Below, one piece after another: positions 8,365 through 41,797 of a DNA stretch of 46,185 bases (positions are counted from its first letter, which is position 1; the number at the start of each line of letters is the position of its first letter). A program made the translations under genes and the position numbers. The notes beneath the pieces were generated by a model, which worked only from the letters and a program-made list of their open reading frames with translations, made no database searches and was not told the DNA's origin. Origin of the DNA: Candidatus Kuenenia stuttgartensis (GTDB lineage: Bacteria > Planctomycetota > Planctomycetia > Planctomycetales > Planctomycetaceae); contig CAMAVB010000028.1 of NCBI GenBank assembly GCA_945861465.1, positions 1 to 46,185 of the forward strand, read 5' to 3'.

Positions 8365-9981
8365 CTAACGCACAACGCCTTCGGAAGCTGACTTCTTACC
8401 GCCGTCTGCGTCTGCAATCTTTGTGACGAGAACCTGAGTCGTCAGCATCAGTCCGGCAATTGACGCTGCATTGGAAAGCGCGTTTCGCACGACCTTTGTC
8501 GGGTCCAGAATTCCGGCTGCTAACATATCGACATATTCATCTTTCGCAGCATCGTAACCCATGGCACCCTTGAGCTGCCGGACTTCGTCTACGATCACAG
8601 CGCCGTCTTTGCCGCAATTGCTGGCGATCGTGCGAGCCGGGGCTTCGAGAGCGCGGATGATAATGTTCACGCCGATCGCTTCGTCACCAGAGACTTCGAC
8701 CTTCTTCACAGCATCAATAGCTCGCAGCAATGCTACGCCGCCGCCAGGCAAAATGCCTTCTTCGACGGCTGCCCGAGTTGCGTGCAGTGCGTCTTCCATG
8801 CGGGCCTTGGTTTGCTTCATTTCCGTTTCGGTGGATGCACCGACTGAAATCACGGCAACACCACCGGTCAGCTTGGCGAGACGCTCCTGAAACTTTTCGC
8901 GGTCGTAATCGCTGTCGGTCTTTTCGATATGATCACGAATCTGCTGCACACGAGTCTTGATGACAGCTGGCTTGCCGGCACCTTCAATGATCGTGCAGTC
9001 GTCCTTGGTGACTTCGACGCGACGAGCACTGCCCATTTGAGCCAGTTCGACGGACTCCAGTTTGATCCCCAGATCTTCGGAAATCAGCGTGCCGCCTGTC
9101 AGAACTGCCATATCACCCAGCATGGACTTGCGACGATCGCCGAAGCCCGGAGCCTTCACAGCACAGATCTTCAGGATGCCCCGCAGCTTGTTGACCACAA
9201 GTGCTGTCAATGCTTCGCCATCAATGTCTTCAGCGATGATGAGCAATTGCTTGCCGGATCGAGCCACTTTTTCCAGCAACGGAACGAACTCACGCAAGCT
9301 GCTGATCTTCTTTTCGAACAGAAGAATCAGGCAGTCTTCCAGCACGCACTTCATATCTTCAGCCTGAGTCACGAAATAAGGGCTGATGTAGCCCTTATCG
9401 AACTGCATGCCTTCCGCGAATTCCAGGGTCGTGCTGTTACCCTTGCCTTCTTCAACAGTGATCACGCCGTCACGACCGACGCGTTCCATCGCGTCCGCGA
9501 TCATGTTACCAATGGCACTGTCGTTGTTCGCAGATATTGCACCGACCTGTGCGATCTGTTTTTTGGATTCAACCGGCTTCGCCTGCTTTTCAAGGCTCTT
9601 CAGAGCAGCTTCCACAGCGAGTTCGATGCCCTTCCGCACAACAGTCGGGTTGGCTCCGAGTGAAATACTGCGGAGACCTTCGCCGTAAATTGCACGAGTC
9701 AGCACGGTGGCTGTGGTCGTACCGTCGCCAGCAGTGTCGCTGGTTTTGCTGGCCACTTCGTTGACCAACTTGGCACCCATGTGCTCGTATGGGTCTTCGA
9801 GTTCGACTTCTTTGCTGACCGTCACACCGTCTTTAGTAACGACCGGGTTGCCGAAGCTTTTGTCGATAATCACATTGCGACCAGTTGGCCCCATCGTGAC
9901 AGCGACTGCTTTCGCCAGTGTCTCCACACCGCGCTGCAGCTTAAGTCGGGCTCGATCGTCAAATAACAGTTGTTTTGCCAC
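8365..9981 (-). CDS. groEL: Chaperonin GroEL, copy without GGM tail
   Basis: A 538-residue 60-kDa chaperonin. The start is a GTG at 9981: AAGGAG (9990-9995) sits 8 nt upstream and the protein then begins [14 protein letters not shown] as the family does. It has [21 protein letters not shown] (ATP site), the apical domain and the conserved [11 protein letters not shown]. The C-terminus ([15 protein letters not shown]) lacks the Gly-Gly-Met repeats that normally line the folding cavity, and this distinguishes it from the other copy in the window. It is downstream of groES on the same strand. Divergent tails usually indicate paralogues with different client sets; that is inference here. Confidence 0.96.
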
Positions 9982-25844: not shown

Positions 25845-28800
25845 GTGTCCAGCGATCGAGGGCGCTCATGGCGTCCGGAAAAGAAAATTAACAAACGGGA
25901 TTCAAGGCGGTACCGCATCTTCTTTGTTAGTGCAATGCTGAGTTTGCTGGTCGGGGCCGTCGCCGTACTGGTATTCGGAACTGCGGCTCCACGATTACGG
26001 TTCATCGTCGTGACGGAGCACGGGTTTCGTGTGGACGAGACCTCACTCACACCGCTGCCCAGCGGAGCCACTGCACTGAACGCCAGTCGGCTTATTGAAC
26101 TGGCCAAAAGACTTCACGAAGCGGATTCAGAACGATTCAGTGAAACAGAGACATACACATCAGTTGCCGATTTTGTCGCGGAAACTTCACCCGCGAGCGG
26201 TGAGAAGCTCGTAATTTATTGTGCCGTGGACGCCTTGTGTGTTGCCGGTAAAGAGAGTGTTGAAAAGATTGAACTGGAATTGCTCCCCGCGAAGCTGTCG
26301 GACGAACGAATTCGTTTTTCCGCGTTTCTGGGAGGCATCAAACAACGCACGCCGTCTCAAACTGTGCTGCTGCTGGAGTTAACTGGACGCTCTCCGGGAT
26401 TGGCATCCGGTTCCGTGGCGGACGAAATCCGAAAACAGGTAGAACAGGAAATTGACGCGGCTGGCATTTCCGGGCTGACGGTAATCTGTGCCAATGACAA
26501 GGGAGAGCGAAGTTGGGAGTATGTGGCCGCTGCGGCTGCCGGAGCAGGCACAGAGTTCGCTGACAAGGCGTCGTTCCCCGAAGGATTTCGCGGAACCGCG
26601 TTTGGCCATTTCATCGAGCAGGCATTTGTCGAGGGAAAAGCGACAACGGCGGCGCAACTGTATGCGACTCTTGAGGCAGACGTCAGTCAATGGGTCAGTG
26701 GACATTTTGGTGAAACCCAGACGGTTTGGATGAAATCGCCCGATCCGCAGGACGCGACGAAGGAGCTTCTTCCGAGTACGAAACTTGCAGAGGCAAAAAA
26801 AACGGACGATCAGCCCCCAGCTCAGGATGTACCGGATTCCAAAGTTCCGGCTGACGCAGATTCAAAGTCAGCAGACGAGAAGACGCAGACGGCCCAGTCG
26901 GTTGATTCCGCAGCTGAAGATGATCCTGTTTCACGGCTAAAGAAACTTCAGGCTCGACGAGATGCCATTGCGAATCAATCCGTCATTGCAGTGTTGTATC
27001 CGGTTGAATGGCTTCAACTGCACATCAGCCTGCTGGCAGCGGAACGCTTCGCGATGACCGGCAACCGTGAAGAATTTGATGCAATGCACGATGATGTTCT
27101 TCGCTCAGCGCTGAAAGAATTGGAACGGGACGCGGCGGAGCGATCGCCGACACCTGGACAACAGGCGGCAGACGACTGGATTGCTGTCGAATCTTCTGCG
27201 GAAGTCAGCGCCGAGGGAGCGAAGCTGTTGCAACAGACTCAACGCGATTTCCGTGTCGAACCGGCCAAAGCTCCAAGGGAGCTCCGCGACGAAATCCTTG
27301 AAAACCGGGTACTGCGACGGGCACTGGTGGCTTCGGTCACAAAGGATCTGAAGGGGCTTTCGAAGTCGATTACGCTTGAGACTAATTTAGAGCGAAGGGC
27401 CAGCGAGATTCAGGAACGGATCTTCCTGATAGAGAATCTTGCCTCCCGCTGGCCGAAAGAAGATCAGGATGTCTTTCCGGAACAATTGGCGACAATCAAA
27501 GAAGTTCTGAGCGGTCAGGATATCGAATGGCTGGCAGCGGCAACAACGCCTCTCGATCAGTTGTTGGATTTAAGGCATCAAACACTGCAATTGGCTGCCG
27601 GAAAGGATCCCGATGTTAAAAGGCTGCGACACGATCAATGGCAGAAAATTGCGCCGGAGTTGGATGAAGTTCTCCGGACGCTGCACGCAGCCGAACGTTG
27701 GCTTTGTGTTGGACCCGAGGGAAAAAATCTGGCGGAAGATCGACTGGCCAAAGCACGCCAGACGTTTGACAAGTTGAAGCAACAGCTGGCAGCCAGTAGC
27801 CGACTGACGAAGATCCGGGACGCGCAGCGGTTCGAAATACCTTTTCTGATCCAGTACCTTGCGATGCGCCTTGAAGAGACGTCACTTCCGCAAGCTGAAC
27901 TGTCTGCTGCTGGCAACATGGCCGCAAACGCCGTCGAGGGGTCCCTGACGGCAGGCGACTTTCCTGTCGGCCAGCTGGAGCCTGTGGGATTCAATCGCGA
28001 TCATATCGAAGCCATGTTTCAGCTCACAAGGGACTTTTCGAAGCCCGATTCAGCAGTCACGGAATCCGACGAGAGGCATTACCGAAAACTTCATGAGTAT
28101 GTTGCTGGACGGCTGGGCGATCCAAAGTCCGTTTCGGCTTCGGAAGTGCTGCAGCTGCTTACGATTCCACACCCGGACCGTGAAAAACACCTCCAGCTGC
28201 TGACGCGGCAGCATGTCGGCGTTGCCAGTCGTCCATCGCAGCCTTCGGGCAGGTCCGGGATCTGGATCAGCTTTTGGTCCTTGCGGCTGGTGCATGCCAT
28301 CGAACCGACATCATCGACTGAATCGACAGCTGACTGGCAGTGCTGGAGGGATCTGGTCACAGCGATTTCCGAAAGTAAAACCGACGTCCCGGCACGCCGC
28401 GTTGCGATGGCCAGCCTGCTGCGAAGTCGCTGGATCGGGGCAATGAAGAAGTTGAAATCGTTCCATGATTCTGAAGAGTTTGTCCCGGAGAATGAGATTC
28501 TGACGATCTTATCCAAAGATGTAAGCCGCCGTGTTCGAGCCACGTCGCTTGAGAATCGCATGTTGTATTCCAGGATTCAGCAGGCTCTTCCGGAGGAAAA
28601 AGCGAGTCAGGACGGGGTGTCGATCGCAGTATTGAATCCGGACGACGAGGTTTCTTCTGACGACTTCAGGGTCACAATCCGCGTACGGGTCAGCGACGTG
28701 GCTGAACTCTTTGTGACGAATCAAAACGACGCCATCGACTTGACAAATGCGAAGGCAGGAAAGGACGGAAACTGGTTCAGAGTGCCGGTTGATGCCAGCA

Positions 28801-30785
28801 GCGAAACCGACGTGTCGCTCGATTTGATGCTGCGAAAAGCACCTCTGGCTCCGACGCCACTGACGATCGTGGCCGTTGATAAACACGGAGCGGCCGTCAG
28901 GAAGGTCACGACAAGACTCATGCCGCCAGCTGATAACGCGTGGGAAATTGAAGTCTGGCAGGTCAAGGAAGGGCAACCCGAACGGCAAATCACGCTTCAG
29001 CAAATGCAGAGTGAGAATAGTCTCCGCCTGCGATTGCTGCCATCGACATGGGATCCCATGACGGAGATGGATGTGCCGTCTCAACTGAAGCTGCGATTGC
29101 GGCGAACAAAGGGCATTTCAAACAGCGTTCGCATCAGGGCCGTTCATGCAGGCAGCACCGCAGTTGCGTGGTCACGTCCGGAACCACTGGTCTTTCCTGA
29201 CGGCGAGACAGTGGTCGATATCCCGTATCAGAGCCCCGCCGCGCCGCCTGCGGAAGGTGCGGCACCGATTACGATACAGTCTGCGCCTGAGATTTCACGC
29301 GGATTACTTTTTGAAATTACGCCGGACGGTCTGCCAGAAGATCTGTCGAGGAGAGTGACGTCTCAGATTTCAATCACTCCACGGCTGCTTGGTCCTGAAG
29401 ACGTGCTCCTCCGACCGGAACCGAAATACGATCCTGCAGAAGATGTGCTGGTGATTCCGCTGGTGCGCGCTCCGTACGATGATGCCGCAGGGCTGTGGCC
29501 GACGAAACTGCCTGCTGATGTGGAACTGAGTCCAAAGCTACAGCAATGTCTCATGCTGCCGGAAGCCAGGTTCACGACCCCGACCCTGAATGCAGACGGC
29601 TATACGTTCAGAATTCCGTTCCGTTCATCTGAGATCCGGAAGATCCTGAGTAAAGACGGGTTGGAATTCGGCGTTTCTGTCGCGGGTGTTCCGCATGGAT
29701 GGTGGTGGACATTGGTTGATGGCGTTCCGCGACTTCTGGAAGGCGATCGTGCTCAGGTTCGCACGTTTCTTTCGGTTGATAATGCGGCCGAAGTCAAGCT
29801 CGCTGCCACAGCGCCGAATCTGCTGCTGGGCGAAAACTGGGACAAGGCAAAACTGACGGCTAGAGTGTTTATACACGGCGGTCAGTTTGACGAAGGCTGG
29901 AAACTGCAACTCTACTTCCTGCGGCAGGGAACAGAGGATCGGCTTCTCGTCCGCGACACACCATTTGAAGTCAGAAACCGCCGAGTTGAGACGGTCAGAA
30001 TCACGGCAGGTGCGAACGGTGTGTGGCAGTTCTCCACAGCCACTGAGCCGTATGTCGTTTCTGCTTTCACTCTAGGCCAGAAACCCGTGCAGGACGGCAC
30101 TTACGACCTTAACGCGGAACTGGCACGTTCAGGCGCACCCGAGGCACCGATTACTTCGGGCGTGCGCTTTACGCTCGACAAAACCGGACCGACACTCAGC
30201 GCCGAAAACGTGAAGCTCAGTCAGTCCCCGACAGACATTGATGGCGAGCTGAAGGGTACGATTCAGGTAATCGATCAGGAGTCCGAAGTAATCGCAGTCC
30301 AGGTTTGGTTGAATCCTGAAATGAAAGTGCCGCTGTTGATAACGCCAGGCAAGCAGGTCAAGGCGGAGTTCACATTGGACTCTTCACATGGCTTCCCAAT
30401 GCTGCCACCAGACACGGGTAAAGATGAGAAGAAGACGGCGATGCTTTCGATCGAAGCAAAGAATCAAGCGGGTGGAACGACACTGATCCTCAAATCTGTC
30501 ACGTTTTTCCGGCCCGGCAAGCCAGCGCCAATGGTTATGGTGCCGGGAACGATTGTTGTGAATTTGAAAGCTGGTGACAAATACGACGTCTCCGTCACCG
30601 GCAAAGATGACAGCGGCAAAGCTGTCATGCGACAGGCTCCTGGCAGCGAAGGAGTTGCGATGTTCGAACTGCCGCCGGGAAACTATACCGTCAAATGGAA
30701 GCCGAAGATCGGATCCGTGTCCGGGAAGCAGGAAGTGAGACTCAAAAGCAACGAGACAGTGACCACCGACCCTGACAAAAAATAG
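25845..30785 (+). CDS. Giant membrane-anchored protein A with caspase-like N-terminus
   Basis: A 1646-residue protein, first gene of a three-gene operon, starting at GTG with AAGGGG upstream. After a basic N-terminus comes one transmembrane helix (about 24-46). The remainder is probably extracytoplasmic. Residues about 52-298 follow the strand order of a caspase-like (C14) fold (KLVIYCAVDALCV, TVLLLELTGRSPG, LTVICANDKGERSWEY, GTAFGHFIEQAF, LYATLEADVSQWVSGHFGETQ), but the His-Gly and Cys of the catalytic dyad are absent. A low-complexity D/K/S/Q linker (about 315-365) leads to a long, mostly helical middle (about 365-930). The last part (about 940-1646) is beta-rich, with Ig-like strands and a C-terminal segment like carboxypeptidase-regulatory domains (LPPGNYTVKWKP). 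The fold calls are my pattern reading and need structure prediction. Confidence 0.85.
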   Translation: MSSDRGRSWRPEKKINKRDSRRYRIFFVSAMLSLLVGAVAVLVFGTAAPRLRFIVVTEHGFRVDETSLTPLPSGATALNASRLIELAKRLHEADSERFSETETYTSVADFVAETSPASGEKLVIYCAVDALCVAGKESVEKIELELLPAKLSDERIRFSAFLGGIKQRTPSQTVLLLELTGRSPGLASGSVADEIRKQVEQEIDAAGISGLTVICANDKGERSWEYVAAAAAGAGTEFADKASFPEGFRGTAFGHFIEQAFVEGKATTAAQLYATLEADVSQWVSGHFGETQTVWMKSPDPQDATKELLPSTKLAEAKKTDDQPPAQDVPDSKVPADADSKSADEKTQTAQSVDSAAEDDPVSRLKKLQARRDAIANQSVIAVLYPVEWLQLHISLLAAERFAMTGNREEFDAMHDDVLRSALKELERDAAERSPTPGQQAADDWIAVESSAEVSAEGAKLLQQTQRDFRVEPAKAPRELRDEILENRVLRRALVASVTKDLKGLSKSITLETNLERRASEIQERIFLIENLASRWPKEDQDVFPEQLATIKEVLSGQDIEWLAAATTPLDQLLDLRHQTLQLAAGKDPDVKRLRHDQWQKIAPELDEVLRTLHAAERWLCVGPEGKNLAEDRLAKARQTFDKLKQQLAASSRLTKIRDAQRFEIPFLIQYLAMRLEETSLPQAELSAAGNMAANAVEGSLTAGDFPVGQLEPVGFNRDHIEAMFQLTRDFSKPDSAVTESDERHYRKLHEYVAGRLGDPKSVSASEVLQLLTIPHPDREKHLQLLTRQHVGVASRPSQPSGRSGIWISFWSLRLVHAIEPTSSTESTADWQCWRDLVTAISESKTDVPARRVAMASLLRSRWIGAMKKLKSFHDSEEFVPENEILTILSKDVSRRVRATSLENRMLYSRIQQALPEEKASQDGVSIAVLNPDDEVSSDDFRVTIRVRVSDVAELFVTNQNDAIDLTNAKAGKDGNWFRVPVDASSETDVSLDLMLRKAPLAPTPLTIVAVDKHGAAVRKVTTRLMPPADNAWEIEVWQVKEGQPERQITLQQMQSENSLRLRLLPSTWDPMTEMDVPSQLKLRLRRTKGISNSVRIRAVHAGSTAVAWSRPEPLVFPDGETVVDIPYQSPAAPPAEGAAPITIQSAPEISRGLLFEITPDGLPEDLSRRVTSQISITPRLLGPEDVLLRPEPKYDPAEDVLVIPLVRAPYDDAAGLWPTKLPADVELSPKLQQCLMLPEARFTTPTLNADGYTFRIPFRSSEIRKILSKDGLEFGVSVAGVPHGWWWTLVDGVPRLLEGDRAQVRTFLSVDNAAEVKLAATAPNLLLGENWDKAKLTARVFIHGGQFDEGWKLQLYFLRQGTEDRLLVRDTPFEVRNRRVETVRITAGANGVWQFSTATEPYVVSAFTLGQKPVQDGTYDLNAELARSGAPEAPITSGVRFTLDKTGPTLSAENVKLSQSPTDIDGELKGTIQVIDQESEVIAVQVWLNPEMKVPLLITPGKQVKAEFTLDSSHGFPMLPPDTGKDEKKTAMLSIEAKNQAGGTTLILKSVTFFRPGKPAPMVMVPGTIVVNLKAGDKYDVSVTGKDDSGKAVMRQAPGSEGVAMFELPPGNYTVKWKPKIGSVSGKQEVRLKSNETVTTDPDKK

Positions 30786-30925
30786 TACCGTGTGCAAGGT
30801 AGCGTGAAAAATCCGAAGGAAGACAATAGACTCCTGACAGTGAGCATTCTGGTGCGACTTCAGTGCAACTTCAGTGCAGATGACAGCACTCCTGCTCGCG
30901 GATGATAGAAGGAAACGGACGGACG

Positions 30926-32566
30926 ATGTCAATCCTGTCGAAAATGATGGAATGGGTGTGTTGGATGTTCGGTGTGGTACCGCGATCCGCAGTTGGGTCA
31001 TCACGCCTGTTCCTGATTGTGCATTACAGCTTCATGGCATTTCTGGCCATTCTGTTTGCGGTGTTCAGCGCGGAAATTCGGTCTTTCGTTGGTTTTCCAC
31101 GTGACATGCAGCGTCTGCAGGGTCCGCTGGATCGGTATCTGTGCGGCATTCTGTTCGTTTTGTGTTACGCGATTGTGCGAGTCGTGTTGTTCCTGTTGAA
31201 ATTGCTGGGGATCGAGGACGAATCGGACTTCCCGGATATCGAAGCTGACTGGAAAGAGATCCTGACTGCCTTCAGTCGTGACCGCGTCTTTCTTGAAGAT
31301 CTTCCGTTGTTTCTGGTCAATGGATTTACGCCACAACAGGAACAGAGCGCGTTTGAGGCGGCATCCAACATTGAGTGGCGCGTCATTGTTCCGCCACTGT
31401 CACGGACGTCCGCCGTCGTGCGCGCGTTTGCTCGAGAGGATGCGATATTCGTTTGCTGCACAGGGATTGGAGCGACGAACTGTCAGCAGGGCAAGGTGGT
31501 GGATGTCGCCGACAGCATTTCTGGTGATTCCGGATTTCCGCGTGCCGGGGCCGGCGTCACGGGAACTCGCAGAGCAGGGGAAATTGCGGAAGTGATCGCC
31601 AATGCTCGATCGGCAACCGGAACAAATCGCGCACTGCCTGCGGCGGCCCCGGAGCCAATCGCTGCAGCACCACGAGGCATGGGAGCCTTCTTTGGAACGA
31701 TGGCACCGGGGGGACTCAAACGGGCAATGGAATCGTTCTCTGCGATCAATCGAGAGAGTCAGAAGGGATACGGCAAGAAGCGTGTCATGCCACTTTCGGA
31801 AGTTGAGACGCTGGTGGGAATTCGACGTATGCAGTTCCTGTGCGGGCTCATCGCCAAGGCTCGCGCCCCATTCTGTCAGATTAATGGCATGCTGCAGGCG
31901 ATTCCGTTTTCCTGGGCATCGGAAGTCGAGTATGCCAGAAAACTTGCACCCGCGATCAAAGATGATCTGATTGCTGTCCATGAAACTTTTCAGTTGCAGT
32001 TTCCTGTTGTCGCCGTCGTGACAGAAGTGGATTCCATCGCGGGAATGAAAGACTTTCTGTTGCGCGCGGAACGCATGCAGCCGGGGCTGAGACTGTCTCG
32101 TTCTGGCTCAAGTTTTGCCCCGGGAGCCGAAGTCAACGACATGAATGCCGCATGGATTGTCGATCGAGGGTTGCAGTGGTTTCGAGGCTGGGTTTATACG
32201 GCATTTTCTGCGGATATCGACAGCCGCGATAATCAGAAGCTCTTTCAGATGCTGTGTGAGATAAGTCAGCGGCGGCAAGGATTGGTCATTTTGCTCAGAG
32301 ACTCTTTGTATCGAATTGTGCAGCCGAGCCCACGACTTCATGGAGTGTATTTTTCCGCCACCGGGCGTGCGTCAACCGAGCAGGGGTTTATGCGAGGCGT
32401 CCTGGACAAACTGCCTGAATCGCAGGGAATGGTCGCCTGGACTCCGCAACTTGTGAAATCGCAGCAGAGATCAAAGCTGGTCTCGATTTGTCTGTTCACC
32501 GGTGCGGTGCTGGTCTCAGGCATAGCGGTCGCGGTGTACCTCACCAGAATCGCAGGTGCAACATGA
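30926..32566 (+). CDS. TssM/IcmF-like membrane protein with degenerate P-loop
   Basis: A 546-residue protein, second gene of the operon. ATG at 30926 is preferred over 30902 because AAGGA precedes it. Two N-terminal transmembrane helices (about 27-48, 72-95) are followed by a cytoplasmic domain and a third transmembrane helix at the extreme C-terminus (about 517-538), the layout of the membrane-plus-NTPase half of TssM/IcmF. Matching segments are WKEILTAFSRDRVFLEDLPLFLVNG (TssM: LPWYLVIG before the P-loop), FQLQFPVVAVVTEVDSIAGMKDFL (TssM: FPVYVLVTKLDLVPGF) and LHGVYFSATG (TssM: LRGVYFTSG). The P-loop is degenerate (NGFTPQQEQS, no GKS/T) and the lysine of the TK(L)D motif is glutamate. The large periplasmic TssM part is missing. 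The stop overlaps the next start (ATGA). Confidence 0.82.
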   Translation: MSILSKMMEWVCWMFGVVPRSAVGSSRLFLIVHYSFMAFLAILFAVFSAEIRSFVGFPRDMQRLQGPLDRYLCGILFVLCYAIVRVVLFLLKLLGIEDESDFPDIEADWKEILTAFSRDRVFLEDLPLFLVNGFTPQQEQSAFEAASNIEWRVIVPPLSRTSAVVRAFAREDAIFVCCTGIGATNCQQGKVVDVADSISGDSGFPRAGAGVTGTRRAGEIAEVIANARSATGTNRALPAAAPEPIAAAPRGMGAFFGTMAPGGLKRAMESFSAINRESQKGYGKKRVMPLSEVETLVGIRRMQFLCGLIAKARAPFCQINGMLQAIPFSWASEVEYARKLAPAIKDDLIAVHETFQLQFPVVAVVTEVDSIAGMKDFLLRAERMQPGLRLSRSGSSFAPGAEVNDMNAAWIVDRGLQWFRGWVYTAFSADIDSRDNQKLFQMLCEISQRRQGLVILLRDSLYRIVQPSPRLHGVYFSATGRASTEQGFMRGVLDKLPESQGMVAWTPQLVKSQQRSKLVSICLFTGAVLVSGIAVAVYLTRIAGAT

Positions 32567-35500
32567 CGTCAAGTGGTGGTCAGGACTGGCGCGGAGGTCG
32601 GGTGCCACGCAATTCGGGACGGTCGGAAGAAGCTGCTCCTAGTTGGAAACAGTCGCCGCACTCACCTGCCGCGCGTGTGCGAACCAAAGGTCTCGGGCCA
32701 AAGTTGCGGATTGCTGCAGCAATCGTGTTCCTGATTGCACTGGTTGCGGCGGTGATTGCAACCTGGGATCCTGCGAAAGAGCATCGCACGCACTTTGTCA
32801 TGCTGAATCTGATGGACGGAGCCGGACCATTTGACACTGCGGCGGCCCTCACTTTGCCTGAAGGAATTGAAACAGCCACAAGTACTCGCATCGTCACTCT
32901 CTGTCACCTTCCGATACTCGCCCTCAATTCGAAATCCCCCGCTGATCAGAGCAATCTTGATGCGGCACATACTGTCGTGATCAATCTGCAGACAACGTTT
33001 GTTCCCGGACCGAACGGTGAATTTCGGTGCCTGATTAGCAACAGCACTCCGAATCTGGATAAGGCAGATCAATTCGCGGAACTGGCGACACTGAAGTCAG
33101 AGCTGGACGCACTCTGGAAGAAAGACCCTTCAAAGCATGTGCTGCTGTTGGTGGATTCCCCTCAGACGAGCTGGGAGTGGCGGACCGGCTGTCTGCATTC
33201 CAGCCTGGTTGATGAATTTGAAAAGTGGACAACGGCATCAAAGAACCTGGTTGTTCTGCTGAGTTCCCCGTCGAACGGTTTGAGCGAACCGGGAACTACC
33301 GGCACGAATGGAAAGTCGATCTTCGGACACTTCGCATCGATTGGATTCAGTAATCTCGCCGACCAGAATCTCGATCAGAAGTTGACGGTTGCTGAATTCT
33401 GCAAATATGTGACTGACCAAACGGACGGCTGGGTTCGGGACCATCGCAATGTTGACGGCCAGGCGGTTACCGTTCTTCCGCTGGACTCGTTGTCAAACGG
33501 CGATCGTGATTTCACCGTCTTTACAGATCTCGTCCAATTGCCGGACACTGCGGAGCAGATTGGCGGCAAATCCAGCACAGACTTTACGGCGGCAGACCTT
33601 ACGGCGATTCAAGAGCAGTGGATGCTTCGTCAGTCCCTGCAGTTACGCGGTGGCCCGCGCTGGAATCCGCTGCTCTGGAAATCCGCGACCGATGATCTCG
33701 TACGAGCTGAAAAAGCATTTCTGTCTGGCCAGGGCAAGAAGGCTCGCCTGGCGTTGACCCAGTCCACGGGCACATTGCGGGAACTTGAAACTCTGACGAA
33801 TGAGATTTGCCCGCCGCCGGAGTCGATCGATCCCGATCGCGGACTTCCGTTCAGCGATTTCAGAGAATTCCCCTCGCTGGATCGTGTTAAGCCGCTGTTT
33901 CCTGCCGCTGCCGGAGAGGCCGGTGTGGCTACCGGATTCACTTCCGCCGAGGTTGTCCTTGTTGCAAATATCGAGGGATTTCCGTTCAGCAGTTTCGGGC
34001 TGACAAAGCCTGCCGATGTAAATGTCATTAGCGCGCGACGAGCCACCGCAGAAGCAGCCGTTGCCAGGATGCTGGGATGTGCAGACCAACTGGCAAGCAC
34101 AGTGAAGCGTCTGGAGTCTACGTTGTTGTTGTCTGAAGACCGCCATTTCACCAGACCTGTTGCGGGCGAATCCGCTGCAACGGAAGATTCGAATCCTGAT
34201 TTATTGATCACCGCCGTTGGGGAGTTCACCGATGCCCAAAACCGCGCAGAGACCACTCTCTTTGAACTGCTGGACAATGCTTCCTCGCTGGCTTTTTGGG
34301 CTGCGAATCCGGCTTGGGAAGTTTCGGATTCTGACCGAAAATTCTGGCTGAAAGTGCTGGTCCGAAACGAGCCGACGGTCACCGTGACAGGCGACATTCC
34401 GAGTACCATGTTCGATCCGCTCAAAGGAATCAGTGATGAGGGAGTCAGCGGCACCCCAGATCATGAACTCTCAGCACAAAAATTGCAAAAAGAGATCTAT
34501 CGGCTTCTCGTTTATGGCCGCGCTCTTCAGCGTAACCTGTTGTTCATTGAACCGATTCAGGGATTCACAGCGAATGAACTGCAAACTGTCACTGAGGCAC
34601 TGAAATCCGCACAGAAAGATGCGTCAAGCTCACAGCAGGAGATTCAGGATCTGCTGGAGAAAATGTGCAAGGAGGCGCTTGGGGAGAAGCCGGCAAAACG
34701 AGCCGGACAGGTTCGTGCCTACAAGTTCCTGCGGTCCACTCTCAGTCTGACGTCGATCCGGCCTGAGACACGGATGTCGGTACTAAGTTCGCTTCAGGAA
34801 TGGGATGCAGCGTTCGCTACCACAAAAGTGCCTGCCCCGGAGGCGGATGTCCAGCATGATGCCAGTTTGGTTCAGCCGGGGATTGCCGCAGAGGCATTGT
34901 GGATGCTGCAGGTGTTGAATTTTTTGCCGGAACATGAGCAGCAGTCGGTGTTGCTCGGGCAGGCTTGGAATGCCGCAAAATCACTCGCGGAGGATGACTC
35001 TGCGGATGAGCACGACGCGGCATTCCGGTTGGGAGAACCGGTTCGAAAAGTCTGGAAGCAAAATCGGGAGCTTGTGGTTGTGGCAGTGCGGGATACAACT
35101 GCAGATGCTCACAGTCTGCTGCGAACAGCGGACCAGCGGGCTCGACTGTTTTCCGGTTTTGACGCTGGCCCAAAATCACTTCGTTCGCCAACGGAACGCC
35201 TGCGTCAACTCAATCGAATTCAATATTGCCTGATGCACGCCGACCGACTTCTGTTCGGCCTCTGGATCGAACCAGGGGATTCTCCTCCACTCGAGCAGAA
35301 AGGCTGGTATGCCAAAGCCACAGACGTATGGTTGACCGCCGCGCGCAAGTGCGAGCAGCGTTTATCGACTGATGGCATGGGAACACCAGCGCCCATTGTC
35401 GAATCGCTTCGGAAGCTGGAGTCCCGACTGTCGGACTCAAAGAATTTAGTACTGACATTTGGAACGGACCAGCGTGATCTCGATCTCCGCGAACAGTCCA

Positions 35501-37536
35501 ATCGCAGCGGGACCATCAAAGGCACGATCCAGATGACTGGCTGCGCCGGCATTTCGGGTGAGGCGGCAGTGCTCGTTCGCCTCGAACCCAATGCCCCCTT
35601 TGTCGTCGAAAACAACGGGCAGGCACTGCGGGTTGGTGATGGGGCAATGGACTCGGTGCTGGCGTTTCGTCGCCTGCGAGATCCAGGAACTGTCGATTGC
35701 CTGTCCGTCCCGATCTCTCCGGAGACCTTTTTCCGCGGGCGATTCAGAAAAGCCGAACCGGCGGTCATCGTCGATCCGTGTGCGCCGGCAGAATTCGTTG
35801 TTGACAAAAAAGCTCGGTCACAGACCGCGAGCGTCAAGGTTTCGGGGGCAGATCCCAGGCCGATTGTGGTGATCCTCGATTTTTCCGGCAGCATGAATGA
35901 GCCGTTGTCAACAAAGCCCGAGACGTTGCGTTACCAGGAGGCACTGACAACCCTGGAGTCACTCGTCAGAAACGGCGCATTGAATGGTTCACGGGTGATC
36001 CTGAACGTCTATGGTCACCGCGTGAAATATGACCCTGTCGCAAAGATCGTTGTCCCAAATCCGTTGTATGCCAAATGCTTCGGAAAACCAATCCCGGGTG
36101 GGTTGGTCGAAATGGACGACATCGAAAACGAATTTGACGGAAAGATAGGCACACCGGAAGCGCTGGCGGACTTCAATCGAGTTATTGACAGTTTGCGGTG
36201 TTCGAAACCGTTTGGCTTCACGCCGCTGGCAAAGGCGATCACAGATGCGCTCAGTGCAGACCTGCAGAAAAAAGCTGGCATCGTCATCGCCATCAGCGAT
36301 GGCGAGGCCAAAGACCTGACCTCTCGAAGAGAGATTGATTTGCGGGATGCTCAGAAACAAAATGGGGTCAGTTCCGTGACGATCGTTGCTTTTGATGTTG
36401 CGGCCAACCCTGTCGCTCGACAGGAGCTGGAGAAGACATTTCGACCGTTTAATATCGGCATTATTGATGCGGCGCAGCAAGCGCAACTTGAAGCTAAAAT
36501 TCTTGGGCTGCTTGATCCCAGGGTTTATACGATCACCTGGGACGACGGTGCGAAGTCCAAAATCGCTCCACTCGGTACCGCCATTACGGACCTTGCCCCT
36601 GCGACAGAACGGAAGTTCAGCATTCAGTTTTCTGAGATCAACACCTTACAGCCCATTGTTCTGCAGCCAGCTGATATTGTGGATCTGGACATTGATCATT
36701 CTCGGAAACTCCTGCTGTTCAAACGCGAAAAGAGTGCGGTCAGCAGGAAGGCCTCCGGCGGTCAGTTTGCCGCTGATTCGCCGACCAGTCTGAAATCCCT
36801 CGCGCCGCCTCGATCGTCGGACCCTTTAGCGGGGCAGAATCCCCAAATGGGAAAGGCAGAACTCCGTCTGATGCTTGATCACGAACGCGATGACCTGCCT
36901 GTGCGGCAACCTGCGGAAATCGAATTTGCCGTCCGCCCGGTCAGTTCTGAGTCCACTTTCCGACCTGCCCTGATCCAGCAGGTCTTTACGTCAGAGGCCG
37001 GGGCACCAGGCTGGAATCTGACGATTGGCGAATGGCCAAAACAGCAATTGTTCCTGGTGGATGCCGTTTGGAAAATGGACCGTACTCCGGCTGAGCAAGT
37101 AATTCCCTGGAAGGATCTGAAAGCAGCCGACTCCATTGACAAGGCAGTGCCGGTGAGAGAAGTCGGTTTGCCGGAGTTCGGCGTATGGGTGACGCTGCTC
37201 GACAACGAGCTTCAGGTTCGTCTCGACCCGGTGACCGTTGTCCGAAAGTCCGAAGCTCCGCGTCCATTGAAGGCATTGGGAGAAGAATTGGCATTGAATC
37301 GAGTTGAAGACGTCCGAATCGAGATCGGCATGAAGGACACGGCAAGTCTGAACGCCGCGTTTCTGCCGTGGGAAGTGGAGACTCGAGTCATCCGGCTGGA
37401 GACGGGGGCGGTCCGCTATGTATTCTCGGGAGACCAGATTACGCGGGCCACGGTCGCTGATGCTGCGATTGCATTCACGTCAGCCGCTGCACGAAAAGCA
37501 GGTGCGATCGAAGTCAGCGATTTTAGAATTGAATAA
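32563..37536 (+). CDS. Giant membrane-anchored protein C: caspase-like N-terminus plus VWA domain
   Basis: A 1657-residue protein, third gene of the operon. The start at 32563 overlaps the upstream stop; the open frame continues upstream only inside the previous gene. One transmembrane helix lies at about 47-67 after a basic N-terminus. Residues about 75-310 repeat the caspase-like pattern of protein A (HTVVINLQTTFV, HVLLLVDSPQTSWEW, LVVLLSSPSNGLSEP, SIFGHFASIGFSNLADQNLDQKLTVAEFCKYV), again without the His/Cys dyad. A long helical middle follows (about 370-1020). A VWA domain (about 1098-1310) has a complete MIDAS: DFSGS (D1106, S1108, S1110), T1220 in GFTPLAKAI and D1246 in AISDGEA. The C-terminal 340 residues are beta-rich. 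Proteins A and C are probably distant paralogues in their first 300 residues. Confidence 0.85.
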   Translation: MTSSGGQDWRGGRVPRNSGRSEEAAPSWKQSPHSPAARVRTKGLGPKLRIAAAIVFLIALVAAVIATWDPAKEHRTHFVMLNLMDGAGPFDTAAALTLPEGIETATSTRIVTLCHLPILALNSKSPADQSNLDAAHTVVINLQTTFVPGPNGEFRCLISNSTPNLDKADQFAELATLKSELDALWKKDPSKHVLLLVDSPQTSWEWRTGCLHSSLVDEFEKWTTASKNLVVLLSSPSNGLSEPGTTGTNGKSIFGHFASIGFSNLADQNLDQKLTVAEFCKYVTDQTDGWVRDHRNVDGQAVTVLPLDSLSNGDRDFTVFTDLVQLPDTAEQIGGKSSTDFTAADLTAIQEQWMLRQSLQLRGGPRWNPLLWKSATDDLVRAEKAFLSGQGKKARLALTQSTGTLRELETLTNEICPPPESIDPDRGLPFSDFREFPSLDRVKPLFPAAAGEAGVATGFTSAEVVLVANIEGFPFSSFGLTKPADVNVISARRATAEAAVARMLGCADQLASTVKRLESTLLLSEDRHFTRPVAGESAATEDSNPDLLITAVGEFTDAQNRAETTLFELLDNASSLAFWAANPAWEVSDSDRKFWLKVLVRNEPTVTVTGDIPSTMFDPLKGISDEGVSGTPDHELSAQKLQKEIYRLLVYGRALQRNLLFIEPIQGFTANELQTVTEALKSAQKDASSSQQEIQDLLEKMCKEALGEKPAKRAGQVRAYKFLRSTLSLTSIRPETRMSVLSSLQEWDAAFATTKVPAPEADVQHDASLVQPGIAAEALWMLQVLNFLPEHEQQSVLLGQAWNAAKSLAEDDSADEHDAAFRLGEPVRKVWKQNRELVVVAVRDTTADAHSLLRTADQRARLFSGFDAGPKSLRSPTERLRQLNRIQYCLMHADRLLFGLWIEPGDSPPLEQKGWYAKATDVWLTAARKCEQRLSTDGMGTPAPIVESLRKLESRLSDSKNLVLTFGTDQRDLDLREQSNRSGTIKGTIQMTGCAGISGEAAVLVRLEPNAPFVVENNGQALRVGDGAMDSVLAFRRLRDPGTVDCLSVPISPETFFRGRFRKAEPAVIVDPCAPAEFVVDKKARSQTASVKVSGADPRPIVVILDFSGSMNEPLSTKPETLRYQEALTTLESLVRNGALNGSRVILNVYGHRVKYDPVAKIVVPNPLYAKCFGKPIPGGLVEMDDIENEFDGKIGTPEALADFNRVIDSLRCSKPFGFTPLAKAITDALSADLQKKAGIVIAISDGEAKDLTSRREIDLRDAQKQNGVSSVTIVAFDVAANPVARQELEKTFRPFNIGIIDAAQQAQLEAKILGLLDPRVYTITWDDGAKSKIAPLGTAITDLAPATERKFSIQFSEINTLQPIVLQPADIVDLDIDHSRKLLLFKREKSAVSRKASGGQFAADSPTSLKSLAPPRSSDPLAGQNPQMGKAELRLMLDHERDDLPVRQPAEIEFAVRPVSSESTFRPALIQQVFTSEAGAPGWNLTIGEWPKQQLFLVDAVWKMDRTPAEQVIPWKDLKAADSIDKAVPVREVGLPEFGVWVTLLDNELQVRLDPVTVVRKSEAPRPLKALGEELALNRVEDVRIEIGMKDTASLNAAFLPWEVETRVIRLETGAVRYVFSGDQITRATVADAAIAFTSAAARKAGAIEVSDFRIE

Positions 37537-39732: not shown

Positions 39733-39803
39733 GTTTAACGGCGAGCCGTAGGCGTAGGCGAATCCAGCGTGCTTCCGCCTTCGCCTACGGCTCGCCGTTA
39801 AAC
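39733..39803. repeat. 71-bp palindrome with 28-bp arms
   Basis: Arms 39733-39760 and 39776-39803 pair at 27 of 28 positions (arm begins GTTTAACGGCGAGCCGTAGG) around a 15-base loop. Same family as the half-element at 37782. Would form a very stable hairpin. No U-tract. Confidence 0.9.
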
Positions 39804-40070: not shown

Positions 40071-40201
40071 CACTGGCCCACCCGCGATGACAGAAATTGA
40101 AAGTGAGTGCGTCGGGACGGAGTTGAAGCGCCAAAGCCCGGAGGCGGGTGGGTTACAGCCACTTGAGCTCGCCAGTGCTCAGTCAACGCAATTGAAGACA
40201 G

Positions 40202-40276
40202 TGACGCGAGTGGGAGTCGAACCCACAGACCACGAAGGTTTGAGCTTCGCCGCTTTGCCGGATTGCGTACCGCGGC
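40202..40276 (-). tRNA. tRNA with CAA anticodon, short variable loop
   Basis: 75 nt on the minus strand. Acceptor arms GCCGCGG and TCGCGTC pair at 6 of 7 positions, the D arm has a 3-bp stem, the anticodon stem is CGAAG/CTTCG with loop CTCAAAC (anticodon CAA, Leu codon UUG), and the T arm GTGGG-TTCGACT-CCCAC is perfect. The discriminator is A. A leucine tRNA should have a long variable arm; here the variable region is only about 6 nt, so identity is uncertain. No CCA is encoded. Confidence 0.6.
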
Positions 40277-40289
40277 GTGTTTTGAAATG

Positions 40290-40364
40290 CGTCCCCGAGG
40301 GGATTTGAACGCCTGATCTCCACCTTGACAGGGTGGCGAGCACTCCGGGCTGCTCCGCGAGGAC
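40290..40364 (-). tRNA. tRNA-Asp(GTC)
   Basis: 75 nt on the minus strand. The acceptor stem (GTCCTCG with CGGGGAC) pairs at all 7 positions, D stem GAGC/GCTC, anticodon stem CCACC/GGTGG with loop CTGTCAA (anticodon GTC), T loop TTCAAAT with one mismatch in the T stem (AGGCG/CCCCT). Discriminator G as expected for Asp. It lies 13 nt from the CAA tRNA. Confidence 0.8.
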
Positions 40365-40375
40365 ATGTTGATGAA

Positions 40376-40479
40376 TAGCTCGAGTGGGATTCGAACCGGG
40401 CACCGATCAGCCGTAGACGGCTGGATTGGTCGAATCGCTGTGTCTGAAACAACGTGGTCTGCCAGTTGCCTACCGAGCC
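40376..40479 (-). tRNA. tRNA-Leu(CAG), class II
   Basis: About 104 nt on the minus strand. The acceptor GGCTCGG pairs with TCGAGCT (with G-U ends), anticodon stem GTTGT/ACAGC with loop TTCAGAC (anticodon CAG), and a long variable arm with stem CAGCCG/CGGCTG. The T loop is TTCGAAT but its stem (CCCGG/CCCAC) pairs poorly, so the gene may be degenerate. Discriminator A fits Leu. Confidence 0.65.
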
Positions 40480-40577
40480 GAGTAATTTGCGATTGTTGAA
40501 TGCCGATTTGCGATTGAATCTGCGCCCTGCCGACTAAGTGCATTCGAAAATCCAGAATCGAAAATCAGCCATCCCAA

Positions 40578-40650
40578 TAATCCCGGATGGACTCGAACCA
40601 TCGTCTTCTGGGTGTAAGCCCGGAGTCGTCGCCGCTGGACCACCGGATCT
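40578..40650 (-). tRNA. tRNA-Val(TAC), degenerate
   Basis: 73 nt on the minus strand. Acceptor AGATCCG with CGGGATT has one mismatch and two wobble pairs; the anticodon loop CTTACAC gives TAC (Val); the T arm GATGG-TTCGAGT-CCATC is perfect. The anticodon stem CCGGG/CCAGA has two mismatches, suggesting decay or post-transcriptional repair. Discriminator A fits Val. Confidence 0.6.
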
Positions 40651-41015
40651 GTTGCGAAATGCCTTTGCAATTGCATTTGGAAGTCTGACAAATAGAGATG
40701 TGCTGTCGTTCAAGATTGGAGTAAACCTGCGGCAACGCATGCAAACTGAAAAAGGACTGGCGGAGTAGTCGCAGCAATTGCGGTCGCGGTTTACGCCACC
40801 ACCTATGTCCGTCTCAGAAATCGTGGGATATCCGAGATGGCTCTCACTCATTCAACGGCGATGCTTTATGACTCGGTTGAGAATGTGGAAAAGTTCCACA
40901 ATCTCAGCACCCACCATTTTAGGTCACGAATCTTTCCTCCGCTCAATGCCGTTGACCGTTTAATGTTTGGCGGTGAAGCTCCAATTCGGGGAATCATGTT
41001 TGACCTTCAGTAAAG
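40651..41015. other. Spacer inside the tRNA array
   Basis: No further tRNA and no supported coding sequence. A small perfect hairpin GTGGAAAAGTTCCAC occurs at about 40888-40902. Nothing else stands out. Confidence 0.5.
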
Positions 41016-41109
41016 CGGAAGCCGTGGGACTCGAACCCACAACGGACATTTCGCCCGCACCTGCTTTCGAGGCAGGCTCCTCAACCAGACGCTGAACTCG
41101 CGGCCATCC
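41016..41109 (-). tRNA. tRNA-Ser(CGA), class II, imperfect
   Basis: About 94 nt on the minus strand. The anticodon stem CCTGC/GCAGG is perfect with loop CTCGAAA (anticodon CGA, Ser), followed by a long variable region (GCGGGCG...TGTCCG) and a perfect T arm GTGGG-TTCGAGT-CCCAC. The acceptor stem GGATGGC with GGCTTCC has two mismatches and the D arm is irregular. Discriminator G fits Ser. Confidence 0.65.
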
Positions 41110-41231
41110 GTAGGAGCGTCAATCGCGGCTCGCCGTTTGGAGATGAAACATGGGCGACCAAAGCGACCCAAAAACTCGGCCTCGAAATCACGACTCGCCC
41201 ACAAGGACGGCCAAAACTCAAATAAACGGTT

Positions 41232-41265
41232 CCTGCCACCGTTGGTCCCCTGCCACCGTTGGTCC
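41232..41265 (+). repeat. 17-bp tandem duplication
   Basis: CCTGCCACCGTTGGTCC occurs twice in direct succession (41232-41248, 41249-41265), followed by degenerate CCGTTTGTCC units. It lies between the tRNA array and the truncated maturase-like fragment. Confidence 0.85.
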
Positions 41266-41329
41266 CCCGTTTGTCCCTACCGTTTGTCCATTCCTTGCTG
41301 AGCAATTGCCCGAGCAGTGTCGCTGTGCG

Positions 41330-41797
41330 TCGTTACCCACCGAGGCCCACTGGGAATATGCCTGCCGAGGCGAAACGCACACCGAGTATTACACGGGCGA
41401 CGGGAACGCCGCACTGCATGGGGCCGGGTGGTATGACCAAAACTCCGGCATCACAACCCACTCCGTGAACGACGACAGCAAACGACGCAACAAAATCGAC
41501 CTGTCCGACATGCATGGCAACGTGTGGGAATGGTGTCTGGACCTCTGGGACGACGCTGCGTATCGCCGCCGCTGGGATGGAATCACGGTCGCGGAAACAT
41601 ACGAACTGGACGAGCAGCATGGCGACCGCTCCGAGTATCCGTCCCGGGTGTTGCGTGGCGGGCCGTCCGGGCTATCGGCCTACTGGTGCCGCTCGGCGTG
41701 TCGCACCAGGTTCAGGGCCAGTGATCGCTACTGGATCGGCGGCTTTCGTGTCTGTCTGGTTCGCAGCCCGCTTTCCAGCTCAGACAGCCCAGACTGA
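41330..41797 (+). pseudogene. 5'-truncated formylglycine-generating-enzyme-like (SUMF1) fragment
   Basis: The frame is open from 41150, but family similarity begins abruptly at about codon 41333 with LPTEAHWEYACRGETHTEYYTGD. It continues through DMHGNVWEWCLDLW, YPSRVLRGGPSGLSAYWCRSACRTRFRASDRYWIGGFRVCLV, the C-terminal core of the FGE/SUMF1 fold. The N-terminal half, including the first part of the metal and substrate site, is missing, and no start codon precedes the homology. The canonical RGGSW is RGGPS. This is a remnant or a mobile 3' fragment. An expressed fusion from an upstream start at 41150 is possible but unlikely. Confidence 0.75.

Follow-up and report, generated by a model that had tools for sequence, protein, structure and literature searches.

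A decaying piece of a conserved planctomycete tRNA array, and a candidate attenuator for the parent arrays

The window analysed here is the whole 46,185-nucleotide stretch of contig CAMAVB010000028.1 from Candidatus Kuenenia stuttgartensis (assembly GCA_945861465.1), and alignment with related genomes identifies positions 40071–41086 of its minus strand as a piece, about 1 kb long, from the middle of a planctomycete tRNA array, cut inside tRNA-Met at one end and inside tRNA-Ser at the other, and decaying. The account that we favour, and hold to be reasonably likely, is that this decaying piece comes from a normally silent reserve tRNA operon that is released by ribosome-mediated attenuation. 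More tentatively, and at something short of an even chance, we propose that Planctomycetota carry a chromosomal reserve translation kit: an almost full second set of elongator tRNAs, joined in many species by an array of Y RNAs and a dedicated Ro60, would be attenuated from a leader whose antiterminator is covered by a finishing ribosome.

The first-pass annotation of this DNA had reported five minus-strand tRNA genes, for Asp, Leu(CAG), Val and Ser(CGA) and one with a CAA anticodon. All five are real, Leu(CAG) through homology and the others through ARAGORN, and the array segment is wider, with seven members, a tRNA-Tyr and the start of a tRNA-Met having been overlooked. Its low edge is the first 17 nt of tRNA-Met (40071–40087), recognised by alignment with locus L054 of genome G003, where the complete counterpart lies at L054:2769, and with locus L149 of Fuerstiella Bin_49_1, the nearest relative found. 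There follow, on the same minus strand, a degraded tRNA-Tyr(GTA) (40107–40189), reported by ARAGORN at a lowered threshold and 90–92% identical to its relatives; tRNA-Leu(CAA), with a short variable arm (40201–40276); tRNA-Asp(GTC) (40289–40364); tRNA-Leu(CAG) (40376–40479); and tRNA-Val(TAC), with stem mismatches (40578–40649). ARAGORN and Rfam agree on Leu(CAA), Asp and Val, which reach the Rfam tRNA cut-off at 40.7–41.5 bits. tRNA-Leu(CAG) is not reported by ARAGORN even with the threshold lowered, and by its homology to L054:2478–2553 and others it is a genuine array member; with its ends read from the sequence it measures about 104 nt; its counterpart in G003 has 76 nt, and an insert of about 28 nt in the variable region accounts for the excess. 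The high edge is a tRNA-Ser(CGA) that lacks its 5' 15 nt (41015–41086, minus strand) and falls below the Rfam tRNA cut-off. ARAGORN gives it as 41015–41101; the match to G003 (97% over 41011–41086) ends at 41086, and from about 41087 an interspersed repeat takes over the 5' end.

Collinearity with two relatives defines the segment. Positions 8455–7670 of L149 match it at 92% identity over 40071–40228 and at 75% over 40580–41071, L054 is likewise collinear, and both matches end exactly at 40071. The Fuerstiella counterpart sits inside a tRNA array of the same order, 1.5–2.3 kb upstream of a Ro60 (TROVE) gene; its tRNA-Asp appears to have been lost through fusion of two leucine tRNAs. The neighbours of the window piece are much as first described, with a repeat that recurs in the genome (41079–41254, no strand assigned; copies of 78–86% identity on contigs C381 and C117 and in genomes G012 and G003) and a truncated FGE-sulfatase (SUMF1-like) fragment on the plus strand (41150–41797; PF03781 positions 111–253 of 255), which is a neighbour only. 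Beside the low edge is another repeat with an inverted second copy (39733–39803), similar copies of which occur on contig C330, and further away (25845–37536) lie three long genes, possibly secretion-related, one of which has an IcmF-related domain (PF14331).

The stem mismatches noted in several of these tRNAs are confirmed by counts of the stem positions that ARAGORN marks as unpaired, at 4.0 per tRNA in the window (n=4) compared with 0.40 for the tRNAs of contigs C351 and C363 of the same genome (n=20) and 0.44 for its other tRNA genes (n=36); ARAGORN favours paired stems, a bias common to all three groups. The window copies are decaying, and the array tRNAs on C351 and C363 are well paired. 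It was also correct that none of the window genes encodes CCA, but this is not a mark of oddity, because none of the 36 other tRNA genes of the genome does so either. These 36 distinct genes outside the window, C351 and C363 include other copies of Asp-GTC, Leu-CAA, Leu-CAG, Val-TAC and Ser-CGA, as the isoacceptor search called for at the outset revealed, and the possibility that the window tRNAs are the sole genes for their codons was rejected. Taken by itself, the window segment is a decaying fragment of an ordinary kind.

The remainder of the array is found elsewhere in the genome, which is a draft of 8.22 Mb in 474 contigs. C351 carries a low-scoring array with a leader and 12 detected tRNAs that extends to the contig end, and C363 carries another, with 8 tRNAs beginning at the contig start, after which come Y RNA-like genes and then Ro60. 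The anticodons of the intact genes are non-redundant across the window, C351 and C363, which suggests that these were one array, now split; C351 has in addition a disrupted Ser(CGA). We infer that C351 and C363 adjoin, and an array in two parts is also seen in genome G016. The view of the five genes as a remnant of an array of the long, atypical kind has stood, with the amendment that the remnant comes from the middle of a conserved planctomycete array, continued on C351 and C363, and not from an arbitrary island. One could suppose instead that the window junction is a misassembly and that the segment belongs in the C351–C363 gap, given the draft state of the assembly and the interspersed repeat at one edge, but we find this barely plausible, as the other copies of that repeat that were found are similar rather than identical and the window tRNAs are far more mismatched than those of C351 and C363. 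Two further tRNA genes, Gln-TTG and Arg-TCG, are adjacent at C330:2713–2884 (L027, L148), look array-like, and may be another stray piece; they are included in the 36 genes counted as the core set, in which this Arg-TCG is the sole gene of its anticodon. Upstream of the leader of the genome's own array is a gene for an AbiEi-type regulator (L031:4520–5137; PF13338), and a tyrosine-recombinase gene of the phage integrase family (L032:3873–5615) adjoins Ro60 on C363.

With the Ro60 of this genome as query, a search of 397 genomes of the class found relatives in 93, which represent 54 of 185 genera; the Pfam TROVE model was less sensitive than the protein query (3 of 21 genomes). Forty Ro60 regions were examined, of which 34 fall in a clade A (63–93% identity) and six in a clade B (38–42%). 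At least two tRNAs lie upstream on the strand of Ro60 in 24 of the 34 clade A loci, the other ten having one tRNA or none (for one of these, 420 nt upstream only were available), and the full arrays keep a near-constant order from tRNA-Phe to tRNA-Cys. All six clade B loci have RtcB and none has a tRNA. A collection of named contigs, which overlaps with the 40-region set in genomes, holds 107 stretches that encode a Ro60 relative, and among the best 80 of these 107, which were analysed, 79 have record titles that name planctomycetes and one is named just 'bacterium'. Within these best 80 of 107, 55 loci offer 3 kb or more of sequence upstream of Ro60; of these, 39 have at least one tRNA there on its strand, 33 at least two and 14 at least 20, the largest number being 43, and 22 have fewer than two. 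Upstream tRNAs on the opposite strand occur at none of the 80.

Leader-bearing arrays are also located far from Ro60, in genome G241 and, by position only, in G360, as well as in genomes with no clade A match (G009 and G065, with a place matching the leader pattern in G049 whose sequence was not read). Together with the split array of G016 these indicate that the head of the array, with the leader, and its tail, with Ro60, are separable, perhaps here too. Of the genes neighbouring the array, those that we take to encode EpmB, EF-P and MiaB (the putative EpmB has a radical-SAM domain) were found in G003 and G004; those from the other side of the array were not found in these two genomes, which therefore offer no demonstration of an empty site.

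In the Ro60 tree, clade A, with 13 planctomycete rows and IMG/VR contig L229, is separated from 11 viral rows by a branch with support of 93/96, just under the threshold for a firm branch, and clade A was not found to nest among phage Ro60. L229, filed as viral, is the one IMG/VR contig inside the clade; its Ro60 is 71% identical, with no tRNAs upstream in the examined stretch. The phage connection proposed at first is sound in that phage arrays combining Ro60 and tRNAs exist, as in Myxococcus phage Mx1 and IMG/VR contigs where Ro60 lies amid many tRNA genes and some tRNA-Leu are short-armed. These differ from the planctomycete arrays in tRNA order and in a Ro60 that is 38–43% identical and separate in the tree, and in Mx1 other phage genes are interspersed among the tRNAs. 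A recent phage origin is thus not supported, because the clade A proteins group apart from those of phages. A plain phage or plasmid island was rejected on that same separation and because every Ro60 match in the collections of 360 phage and 78 plasmid records is below 60% identity, the best listed being 44.0% and 43.4%, respectively.

Three candidates for a constant partner of the arrays were rejected. RtcB is beside Ro60 in two of 36 clade A loci (L056 and L121), many loci having short flanks, and has no match on the genome's own C363 contig; an RNA ligase is present in three of 36. The ligase genes are positioned between the array and Ro60 (L056:5994–6776, PF09414; L103:12091–12861; L121:7284–8060), and two of the three loci have RtcB on the far side of Ro60. 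An EF-Tu paralogue was found solely in the array of G003 among 48 loci, where it lies inside the tRNA array (L054:3138–4313) and shares 65% identity with the other EF-Tu of G003; a second EF-Tu, located elsewhere, is present in G016 too.

A more regular association is with Y RNA-like genes. On C363 the interval from the last tRNA to Ro60 contains six copies of a 27-nt motif and partial matches to the Rfam YrlA family, below its cut-off. A covariance model built from ten RNAs, two others (L154 and L208) having been dropped from the alignment beforehand, gives five matches upstream of Ro60 on this contig (L032:796–1805), two of them weak (E 0.0003 and 0.03). The model has at least one match in 55 of 57 clade A loci and at least two in 49, with a maximum of nine (L109); these counts omit L151, a repeat of L096, and five of the 57 loci (L032, L109, L157, L200 and L218) hold a sequence used in building the model. 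As expected, it also matches the interval between Ro60 and RtcB in five of six clade B loci and one of two plasmid loci (Rhizobium), and it has no match within the window. It supersedes an earlier strict motif with copies in 20 of 68 loci (23 upstream, none downstream). One of the Y RNA-like genes on C363 (L032:1186–1327) has a tRNA-like module in permuted order, with the T-arm before the D-arm.

We examined the array tRNAs as tRNAs in a set of 824 distinct sequences from array loci, with duplicates removed and a few isolated tRNAs included (nine of 449 isolated tRNAs were excluded from one isolated-tRNA tally). Of the 816 tRNAs that allow the comparison, 680 have the discriminator base of their own isotype, compared with a mean of 330 and a maximum of 363 in 1000 label shuffles, and the G3:U70 pair is present in 35 of 41 tRNA-Ala and in five of the 783 others; presumably neither feature is scored by ARAGORN. 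By these measures the array tRNAs retain elements of charging identity. Every stem cell is paired in the 22 distinct Trp-CCA tRNAs (440/440), and 14 of the 20 pairs show double changes; the corresponding figures for paired cells are 205/210 for Asn, 395/460 for Cys and just 94/132 for Arg-GCG. The arrays are long, with up to 43 tRNAs, and supernumerary, as the 36 other tRNA genes of this genome illustrate, and one of them (L111) covers all 20 amino acids with 37 tRNAs. No initiator tRNA was recognised among the array tRNAs, and most of the listed Met(CAT) genes have a very short D-arm. Anticodons of the stop type occur in G003 (TTA, L054:2031–2102) and at L096:5794 and L116:7703 (both TCA). 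The variable region of array tRNA-Leu is at most 10 nt in 75 of 90 cases, compared with 13–17 nt in the five other tRNA-Leu of the genome. The idea that this short arm is restricted to planctomycetes was rejected, as it is also found in Nostoc, Nonomuraea, Mx1, Phendrix and L239; it is absent from arrays of Variovorax, Methylibium and Acidiphilium.

These short-armed tRNA-Leu, the low Rfam scores of some array tRNAs and the tRNA-like modules in the adjacent Y RNAs might all be explained if the array tRNAs served mainly as ligands of Ro60, as decoys or as regulatory RNAs of tRNA-like form, and not as adaptors in translation. We regard this as very unlikely, because a nearly complete anticodon set (20 amino acids in L111) with its discriminator and Ala identity kept corresponds to the needs of decoding, and several arrays are located away from Ro60.

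Evidence for regulation comes from the region ahead of arrays that begin with tRNA-Phe. Sixteen of 17 distinct upstream regions contain a terminator-like hairpin with a T-run 11–61 nt before tRNA-Phe (14 of 340 random positions do), the seventeenth (L187) being cut by the edge of the examined stretch. In all 16, an open frame ends 59–66 nt before the T-run (TGA in 14, TAA in two), and its stop codon lies inside a motif, GT(G/A)AC(A/G)(C/T), that is complementary to the 5' arm of the terminator; where L201 has TAA, the terminator arm carries a matching change. Folding the leaders without the 3' arm yields an alternative, antiterminator pairing in each of the 16, and with the 3' arm included the terminator wins in 15, the exception being L055. 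The predicted folds thus contain both a terminator and a competing antiterminator, as in an attenuator. In the terminator helix 97.4% of cells are paired, with 12 double-change cells, a number equalled in none of 500 shuffles; the antiterminator is 94.6% paired and varies too little for its covariation to be significant.

Used alone as a query against the 397 genomes, the terminator pattern turned up at 34 places in 32 of them, and the reversed pattern at none. Thirty of the 34 were read. At least two same-strand tRNAs follow 28 of them and a single tRNA follows one; for the last only 182 nt were examined, and at each of the 29 with a longer downstream stretch tRNAs are present. The stop motif is present at 24 of the 30 places and missing at six; seven of the 30 duplicate arrays already among the first 16, and of the 23 others 17 have the motif and six do not. 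A second motif, GAAC(C/T)-N13-18-CGTC, further upstream in eight of 16 leaders (control 65 of 960), resembles ECF-sigma promoters. The stop-motif and promoter counts are descriptive, because their expressions were written after the alignment had been viewed, and the pattern search is the more independent test of the leader, which by these comparisons is conserved across families. The frame in the leader of the genome's own array (L031:5406–5522, 38 codons) is probably translated; over the leader frames pN/pS is 0.63–0.81, and in two of three groups a shifted frame gives a value no higher.

Both that pN/pS result and the antiterminator statistic, which 60 of 500 shuffles match, leave room for the view that the hairpin is merely the terminator of the upstream gene or a fixed insulator, and that the array is regulated otherwise, for example by a repressor such as the one that, in the part of the Anabaena work consulted, controls the operon there (PMC10272220). 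This is rather unlikely in our judgement, in view of the stop codon and the complementary strand keeping their place in 16 of 16 leaders, including the compensated TAA of L201, and of the tRNAs that follow the terminator pattern at every read place with enough sequence downstream.

A different interpretation of the arrays as a whole is that they are horizontally acquired, degenerating leftovers of phages or plasmids without function, the window piece being another scrap. Planctomycete tRNA clusters were described in 2016 as partially degraded, or degenerate, and perhaps dispensable, in the sections consulted of Kim et al. (PMC4807772), and these are very probably the same arrays in the same bacterial group; neither 'Ro60' nor 'TROVE' appears in the main text of that article. 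The decay of the window piece, the few or absent tRNAs at many loci and the known tRNA arrays of phages and plasmids all agree with such an interpretation. In contrast to that account, however, we find identity elements kept and a leader, Y RNAs and Ro60 linked to the arrays. The kept identity elements, the paired, covarying stems of the Trp, Asn and Cys sets, a near-constant tRNA order and a leader conserved across families speak against this interpretation, which we consider unlikely.

Returning to the reserve-operon reading, we infer from the anatomy, conservation and identity elements of the arrays a model for their silence, switching, charging and association with Ro60 and Y RNAs. The operon would be a nearly complete second set of elongator tRNAs, silent in normal growth, and would add to the core tRNAs upon damage to these or impairment of translation. 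In unstressed cells a ribosome would complete the leader peptide and rest on its stop codon inside the antiterminator strand (GTGACAC), such that the terminator forms and the array is off. A ribosome stalled earlier would leave the antiterminator free to form, and polymerase would continue into the array and, at linked loci, probably through to the Y RNAs and Ro60, which may handle RNA alongside the reserve tRNAs. If this is true, any general failure of translation would switch on the whole set, in a pan-tRNA version of amino-acid attenuation. The attenuators of amino-acid operons likewise combine a leader ORF with mutually exclusive antiterminator and terminator structures; the planctomycete leader differs in that its predicted peptides are of mixed composition and in that it precedes a tRNA array instead of biosynthesis genes. 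The window piece, with neither leader nor Ro60, probably has no function, or at most a partial one should it be transcribed from outside.

Long tRNA arrays were reportedly treated most fully by Santamaria-Gomez in 2021. By analogy, the nearest tested system is the trn operon of Anabaena PCC 7120, which the portion of the source consulted describes as normally silent and induced by translation inhibitors, with a repressor, TrcR, that also controls rtcB (PMC10272220); the operon reading is supported because this system is analogous. Like the planctomycete array it is long, supernumerary and separate from the housekeeping tRNAs, whereas it is carried on a megaplasmid and controlled by a repressor, and the planctomycete arrays are chromosomal in the complete genomes seen, have a leader terminator and are often followed by Y RNAs and Ro60. 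Ro60 was not found within 5–8 kb of nine other plasmid or phage tRNA arrays, one of them from Nostoc PCC 7524. The second comparison is with RNA repair: according to the part of the report consulted (PMC7790460), damaged tRNAs elicit a response from the RNA repair operon of Salmonella, of which Ro60 and Y RNAs form part. This rsr–Y RNA–rtcB organisation, also present on proteobacterial plasmids (L241–L243), shares Ro60 and Y RNA-like genes with the planctomycete loci, and a few clade A loci also have RtcB or an RNA ligase close by; L241–L243 have rtcR and rtcB in place of the tRNA array and a Ro60 from another part of the tree.

Planctomycete tRNA clusters and an inducible operon in Anabaena were thus already known, and the linkage of the arrays to Ro60 and Y RNAs and the candidate attenuator are apparently new, no report of either having been found in the open-licence literature searched. 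Among the open-licence literature searched, the upkeep and switching of long tRNA arrays have been worked out just for Anabaena. The combination of Ro60/Y RNA linkage, retained identity and a putatively ribosome-sensing leader provides a model testable in cultured planctomycetes and questions the label of degenerate clusters, and it suggests the loss of tRNAs as a possible physiological context for bacterial Ro60.
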